From Candidatus Dormiibacterota bacterium (GTDB lineage: Bacteria; Chloroflexota; Dormibacteria; Dormibacterales; Dormibacteraceae), in contig PLJM01000006.1 in assembly GCA_003139695.1 (NCBI GenBank), positions 310,001-374,000 of the forward strand: DNA of 64,000 nt, written 5' to 3'. The notes under the pieces are model-generated. The model saw only the letters and a program-made list of their open reading frames with translations. It ran no database searches and was not told the DNA's origin. The position numbers were made by a program, and so were the translations under genes. Of the stretch, positions 45,433 through 46,950 are shown one piece after another. Each line of letters opens with the position of its first letter. Positions within the stretch are counted from its first letter, which is position 1.

Positions 45433-46137
45433 GTGCTCGTAATTCCCGCCATCGACATCCTGGGCGGACGCTGCGTCCGACTCGTGCGCGGCGACTATGC
45501 GCATCCGACCGTCTACTCGGACGATCCCTCCGACGTGGCAACGAGCTTCGCCGAAGCCGGCGCCGCACTGATCCATGTCGTCGACCTGGACGCCGCTCGA
45601 GATGTCGGCGACAACCACGCGGCGATCGAGCTGATGGTCCGGCGAAAGGACGTCAAGGTGCAGGTCGCAGGCGGCGTTCGCTCCGAAGCCCTGGTCGACA
45701 AGCTGCTTGCCATGGGCGCGCACGCGGTCGTGATGGGCACCGCTGCCGTGCGCGAGCCCAGGTTGCTCGAGCGATGCGCGCGGAAGCACGCAGGTCAGGT
45801 ATTCACCGCGCTCGATGTGCGCGACGATCAGCCCGCGGTGCATGGGTGGACCGAGAACGAGCCCCTGAAGATGGGCAGCTTGCTCGCACGTTGGGATGTG
45901 CTGCCACTGGCCGGGGTCATCTTCACGAGCATCGCGAGGGATGGAACGATGGAAGGCCCCGACCTGAAGACGCTGGCGCGCGTGCGCGCGATGACGAGCC
46001 TGCCCGTCCAGTACTCGGGCGGTGTGTCCTCGATCGAAGACGTCCGCGCGGCCGCGGCGGCAGGGGCGATGGGAGTGATCGTGGGCAAGGCCCTTTATGA
46101 AGGCCGGATCAAGCTGGCAGAGGCGCTGGCGCTATGA
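45433..46137 (+). CDS. hisA: HisA-type ProFAR isomerase (possibly PriA-like)
   Basis: VIPAIDILGGRCVRLVRGDY...FTSIARDGTMEGPD...YSGGVSSIEDV. Confidence 0.92.
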   Translation: MLVIPAIDILGGRCVRLVRGDYAHPTVYSDDPSDVATSFAEAGAALIHVVDLDAARDVGDNHAAIELMVRRKDVKVQVAGGVRSEALVDKLLAMGAHAVVMGTAAVREPRLLERCARKHAGQVFTALDVRDDQPAVHGWTENEPLKMGSLLARWDVLPLAGVIFTSIARDGTMEGPDLKTLARVRAMTSLPVQYSGGVSSIEDVRAAAAAGAMGVIVGKALYEGRIKLAEALAL

Positions 46138-46529
46138 ACAGGCTTGCACTGGCGCTTGCCGCGATGCTGCTCGTGGTGGCCTGCGGCGGTCGGGCGGCGG
46201 CCGACGACCAGGGCCTGCACCACGACATCGTCAACAACAGCAGCGGCGCCGAGGTGACATTCGACGCCACAGTCCTCGACAACCCGGTGGAGTCGGGCGG
46301 CCACGAGAGGTTCGAGGTCAAGGCTTCGACCGGCGAGACCCTGGAGATCGATCACAACACCACGCTCGCGGCGTCTGTCCCCATCCACGCCGGCGACACG
46401 GTGGTGATCCACGGCCAGTTCTACATCGATCCCGGACCCCACCTGGGTGTGCACTGCACCCATGGCGCCACCTCGAGCGGATGCCCAAACTCGGGCTGGA
46501 TCGAATTCAACAACAATTACTACGAATGA
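46134..46529 (+). CDS. Secreted/lipo- DUF3465-like protein
   Basis: MLLVVACGG signal; HHDIVNNSSGAEVTFDATVLDNP...GVHCTHGA. Confidence 0.7.
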   Translation: MNRLALALAAMLLVVACGGRAAADDQGLHHDIVNNSSGAEVTFDATVLDNPVESGGHERFEVKASTGETLEIDHNTTLAASVPIHAGDTVVIHGQFYIDPGPHLGVHCTHGATSSGCPNSGWIEFNNNYYE

Positions 46530-46677: not shown

Positions 46678-46860
46678 GTGGGCGATAGCAAGAGGAAGCG
46701 GCGATCGCTGGCGACCACGACGGGGTCGGCGTTTAGGAACCTGTTCGCCGGTGGCATGGGCCCACTGGAGCGGCTGCGGACGATTGCCGCCAACATCGGC
46801 CGGCGAGGAGGCACCCCCAGGGCTGATTGCTGTGGCAATTACGGCGAGCCCGGTTGTTGA
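46678..46860 (+). CDS. 60-aa basic peptide with Cys-rich C-terminus
   Basis: MGDSKRKRRS...NIGRRGGTPRADCCGNYGEPGC, GTG start. Confidence 0.6.
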   Translation: MGDSKRKRRSLATTTGSAFRNLFAGGMGPLERLRTIAANIGRRGGTPRADCCGNYGEPGC

Positions 46861-46950
46861 ATGACGATGGATGAGGCCCGTGCGGCCGGATTGGTCAAGC
46901 CCAACGATCACAAACCTCACGACCACAAGCCACACGACCACGGGAAGTAG
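46861..46950 (+). CDS. 29-aa His-rich peptide
   Basis: MTMDEARAAGLVKPNDHKPHDHKPHDHGK; ATG immediately follows the upstream TGA. Confidence 0.5.
   Translation: MTMDEARAAGLVKPNDHKPHDHKPHDHGK

Follow-up and report, generated by a model that had tools for sequence, protein, structure and literature searches.

The window analysed here, a stretch of 64,000 nucleotides from the genome of a Candidatus Dormiibacterota bacterium, carries at positions 46678-46950 of the forward strand what we are highly confident is a single gene for a bacterial selenoprotein of 90 residues, and not two open reading frames (ORFs). The UGA at 46858-46860, judged from comparison with relatives, is very probably a selenocysteine (Sec) codon rather than a stop. 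In the ORF list the locus appears as a frame with a GTG start (46678-46860, 60 aa), which ends in RGGTPRADCCGNYGEPGC before the TGA, and as a second frame of 29 aa, MTMDEARAAGLVKPNDHKPHDHKPHDHGK, whose ATG adjoins that TGA and which terminates at the TAG. The GTG assigned as start codon of the selenoprotein is an inferred choice. The features are collected in Table 1.

The first-pass annotation had interpreted the locus as a coupled pair of micro-ORFs. Its Cys-tailed ORF of 60 aa exists, although its final decapeptide has three cysteines (CC...C), one fewer than was given. The proposed linkage of the two halves is real and, within the lineage of the window, both have been conserved together; the absence of conservation named there as grounds for rejection was therefore not found. 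Nevertheless, the halves appear to constitute one protein, with the second "ORF" as its C-terminal tail.

Table 1. Features of the selenoprotein locus in the window and of adjoining genes there and in relatives
Feature	Position	Strand	Basis or remark
DUF3465 (PF11948) gene	46134-46529	+	between hisA and the selenoprotein gene
N-terminal 60 codons, ending CCGNYGEPGC	46678-46857	+	ORF list; shared C-terminal motif
UGA as probable Sec, residue 61	46858-46860	+	TGA/TGC exchange; translation with TGA as U; Sec machinery of the genome
C-terminal tail, 29 codons, MTMDEARAAGLVKPNDHKPHDHKPHDHGK, His-rich repeat	46861-46947	+	Gly and Leu kept in 22 relatives
Predicted SECIS element	46866-46896	+	fold energy; core hairpin spacing and covarying stems in relatives
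Predicted SECIS core hairpin, GGCC-CGUGC-GGCC	46875-46887	+	loop 46879-46883, begins 18 nt past the UGA
Predicted true stop, TAG	46948-46950	+	ORF list; translation with TGA as U
Pyridine-nucleotide disulfide oxidoreductase (Lpd/MerA-like)	L061:1711-3165	+	below family cut-offs
Pyridine-nucleotide disulfide oxidoreductase (Lpd/MerA-like)	L064:1-1450	-	below family cut-offs

A family with probable Sec or Cys at one position

Relatives were identified by a pattern scan that took a single genome for each bacterial or archaeal species (84,980 species), in which the motif, and not the TGA, was among the patterns. At least 12 relatives were found, labelled Chloroflexi/Chloroflexota, Dormibacteraeota or Ardenticatenia among the matches listed, and in each of the 12 listed CCGNYGEPGC is followed by TGA. 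Profile searches of 400 Chloroflexota genomes yielded matches in 59 genomes at E <= 0.01 and, with a broader profile, in 61 genomes at E <= 0.001. The genomes considered credible number 57 of the 400: in 54 of them CCG..G.PGC precedes a TGA, and in three more a TGC occupies the TGA position, which bears out the earlier suspicion that the feature is non-random. The motif CCG..G.PGC is common to all 68 distinct Chloroflexota sequences, the window included, and it can be generalised to CCGxxG[EDQA]PGC-U, with two upstream Asn residues shared by 90% or more of the 55 members in the alignment. Six pattern hits on viral contigs included no relative, and tblastn against plasmids gave no match. Members of genus g154 (L070, L071, L082) carry two to three tandem selenoprotein genes that are mutually diverged, each with its own TGA and its own hairpin.

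The codon at exactly this site is TGA in 65 of the 68 distinct sequences and TGC, encoding Cys, in the other three, from genomes G013, G162 and G082. Examples of the Cys forms are CCGNHGQPGC-C-ATGSCSIGPEHPH in G013 and CCGHPGEPGC-C-E in G082. Comparison of the aligned genes thus establishes, as far as coding sequence can, that the residue at the UGA codon alternates with Cys in natural relatives. For G082, neither SelA, SelB nor tRNA-Sec was detected at the thresholds used, while all three were found in G162 and G013. The Cys form in G162 (L051/L097) retains a weak hairpin (-2.1 kcal/mol) at the place expected for a selenocysteine insertion element (SECIS), possibly a decaying element left by a recent Sec-to-Cys change in a host that has kept the machinery.

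The hairpin and the coding tail downstream of the UGA

In bacterial SECIS elements the loop lies 16-37 nt after the UGA and has a G at its first or second position (PMC13188914). Hairpins were searched for with a stem of at least four pairs and a G at loop position 1 or 2, and controls were searched identically. All 65 distinct TGA members have such a hairpin, whose loop lies 17-23 nt past the UGA. The best hairpins average -8.4 kcal/mol for these members against -3.7 kcal/mol for 521 other TGA stops at the same loci (p = 2e-20, a value that treats members related by descent as independent). Among 49 distinct stems, 5.43 of 6 positions pair, compared with 2.91 +/- 0.18 when one arm is re-dealt, figures which likewise ignore phylogenetic relatedness. 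The core hairpin alone reaches the -7.5 kcal/mol or lower asked of a bacterial selenoprotein in 62% of members. That of the window is weaker than the family mean, at -5.4 kcal/mol, and the full predicted element, including its outer pairs, folds at -13.0 kcal/mol. The folding energy of the window hairpin by itself is not unusual (z = -0.98), and consequently the case for a SECIS rests on comparison. In L011, L013 and L014 the hairpin is kept despite differing tail peptides. Taken over the aligned relatives, these data demonstrate a covarying hairpin of predicted bacterial SECIS type following the UGA at the standard distance.

A hairpin after a stop codon might also be an intrinsic terminator or another 3' RNA element, with TGA an ordinary stop and the tail a product of chance, and several of the tails are indeed short and show little conservation from one distant lineage to the next. 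We consider this extremely improbable, given that five consecutive T residues do not occur within 60 nt in any of the 65 members, that the distance of the hairpin from the UGA is fixed, with a G at loop position 1 or 2, that Cys replaces the residue at the TGA in some relatives, and that amino acids of the tail are conserved in the window's lineage, the Dormibacterota. In 22 tails of the EA type, Gly and Leu are kept at tail positions 10-11 while their codons vary (GGT/GGA/GGC and TTG/CTG), and tail codons 5-9, those forming the hairpin, are nearly invariant even at synonymous sites. At the level of sequence, this is the pattern expected of a tail that is both translated and part of an RNA element and, by the same comparative evidence, the reading frame demonstrably stays coding past the UGA.

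Another alternative is the one originally proposed, namely that a Cys-tailed peptide of 60 aa stops at the TGA and is translationally coupled to a His-rich peptide of 29 aa starting at the adjacent ATG. The TGA-ATG junction is present in the window and in 21 of the 65 distinct TGA members; however, it does not represent a conserved start, and the other 44 carry GAG, CAG, GTG, CGG, GTC, ACG, AAG or other codons instead. They include L010 and L012, where ACG or ATC follows the TGA and the start is consequently missing, even though their tail, TREEAIRFGL, is homologous to MDEARAAGL of the window. Moreover, certain tails are just 3-4 residues long, three relatives read TGC for TGA, and the covarying hairpin at SECIS spacing would be left unexplained, such that two coupled peptides are very improbable.

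Sec decoding in the host genomes and relation to known selenoproteins

Under the selenoprotein reading, established Sec-decoding biology would have SelA and SelD produce Sec-tRNA-Sec, and SelB carrying this tRNA (anticodon UCA) would bind the hairpin, so that selenocysteine would be inserted at the UGA to give ...CCGNYGEPGC-U-MT.... The window genome encodes SelA, SelB, SelD and a tRNA-Sec with anticodon TCA; ARAGORN detected no tRNA around selAB, and the tRNA-Sec is located elsewhere. The same genome carries a formate dehydrogenase alpha-like gene (G000 C6:19397-19843, minus strand, locus L133) with an in-frame UGA in a U-H-A-P (UHxP) context and a GGUC hairpin loop 18 nt downstream, and this gene is a selenoprotein of known type. 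The window gene resembles it in the predicted route of UGA decoding and in the loop distance, whereas the protein and the reaction are unrelated.

SelB is found in 52 of the 54 genomes with a TGA member, as against 257 of 343 lacking the family (p = 1.4e-4, treating descent-related members as independent). In G095, SelA and SelB are missing, probably through an assembly gap since the tRNA-Sec is present. For G344, which is 98% complete and carries a TGA member whose hairpin is intact (C34:1810-1989, locus L104), SelA, SelB and tRNA-Sec were not found. As SelA, SelB and tRNA-Sec lie on a single contig in G162, one lost contig could explain their absence from G344.

The protein itself looks like a new family of selenoproteins, themselves a known kind of protein. 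Neither half, nor the joined window protein, matched Pfam or NCBIfam, none of the NCBIfam 20.0 or Pfam families had hits from two or more of the 55 members searched, and a search of the PDB gave no match. Weak hits to ZrgA, a zinc-uptake family, and the like each came from one member and were discarded. A table of 119 prokaryotic selenoprotein entries contains none recognisable as a CCGxxG[EDQA]PGC-U protein (PMC13188914), and the motif strings occurred in no paper of the literature searched. Within the family libraries, that catalogue and the literature searched, the family is probably undescribed, and it would be an apparent addition to the approximately 119 prokaryotic selenoprotein families and subfamilies catalogued. 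The closest likeness is to the CU-motif families KCU-star/DUF466 (NF033934), SaoC (NF040734) and MbdU (NF045648; PMC13188914), in which a UGA-encoded Sec also directly follows a Cys and some of which, going by their names alone, are small with a near-C-terminal motif. They differ in that no member gives a meaningful E-value match to any NCBIfam model, and the motif and its flanks are distinct from those in the table (PMC13188914).

The family is present in roughly one-seventh of the 400 Chloroflexota genomes sampled, and a gene caller taking TGA as stop would yield from it an ORF of 45-70 residues of unknown function. The family is almost wholly of the Sec form, with very few Cys forms, and the deep-Sep authors state that their method may fail for families of this kind (PMC12013277).

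Possible function and gene neighbourhood

A vicinal Cys-Sec pair and an upstream CC pair are conserved, as is a C-terminal tail, whose length varies. On a flexible C-terminal arm, the Cys-Sec pair, with the CC pair eight residues upstream, could form a reversible selenenylsulfide/selenolthiol centre. Mammalian thioredoxin reductase is a large flavoenzyme with a C-terminal GCUG arm. The small proteins may share with it a Gly-Cys-Sec sequence on a flexible arm, and possibly a selenenylsulfide redox pair, but at 50-90 residues they have no flavin domain, and no homology was found, which limits the analogy to mechanism. An AlphaFold model of the protein (pLDDT 65.5, pTM 0.27) was too poor for a fold search.

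The motif and the His-rich tails suggest a Cys-Sec centre for thiol redox or soft-metal capture, a role to which we give slightly less than an even chance. Tails with three or more His residues occur in several separate lineages, and the tail in sister genus g7 ends in PHKHKH; in some lineages such tails would add a metal site. On the tentative side, and with somewhat less assurance, the tiny proteins could represent a Chloroflexota-wide, undescribed set in which a CCGxxGEPGC-Sec arm and a repeatedly gained His tail make up a minimal metal or redox centre based on selenium and of an uncharacterised type.

Metal handling, as suggested in the first-pass annotation, is possible for the selenoprotein in view of the His-rich tails and of the ZIP, DtxR-type, CopA or MerA-like genes close to some copies. 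A stricter version, in which Cys/Sec and the His tail serve mainly to bind metal, whether for storage, buffering or detoxification, and not for catalytic thiol redox, appears doubtful to us, if far from negligible. Apart from the tails, it is favoured by two genes upstream in the f3 genomes, for a DtxR-type regulator and for a ZIP transporter, by a DtxR-type regulator upstream in L010 and L012 and by the CopA-like ATPase encoded downstream in L073. The catalogue also contains several CU-motif selenoproteins that are metal-related, for example HgcA, SaoL and MbdU (PMC13188914). Against this, only 9 of the 65 tails have at least three His residues and most lack a His-rich segment, and the neighbours vary by lineage and are often metabolic, including hisA, leuB/leuD and pyruvate kinase.

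Clustering of neighbour genes revealed no partner found repeatedly in different lineages. The neighbours that could be identified have metabolic, redox or metal-transport roles, with a ferritin-like protein as a weak match, and none encodes a peptide-maturing enzyme, which speaks against the modified-peptide system once envisaged. In the window's family, hisA and a DUF3465 gene lie nearby. A MerA/Lpd-like FAD reductase starts 12-13 bp downstream of the selenoprotein gene in two g49 genomes and is a candidate for its reductase partner. The genomes of this genus, which we take to be possibly Dehalogenimonas, are single-contig and of 1.7-2.1 Mb; it may include cultivated strains and, if so, the selenoprotein prediction is directly testable.

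Other arrangements were observed in particular lineages. In several relatives (e.g., L003, L004 and L046) the ATG of the selenoprotein gene follows ...TACGA and forms an ATGA overlap with the end of the upstream frame. In families f71 and f90 (L070, L075, L082) the gene has leuD on one side and leuB on the other, and in f79 (L077) it is located upstream of leuB.
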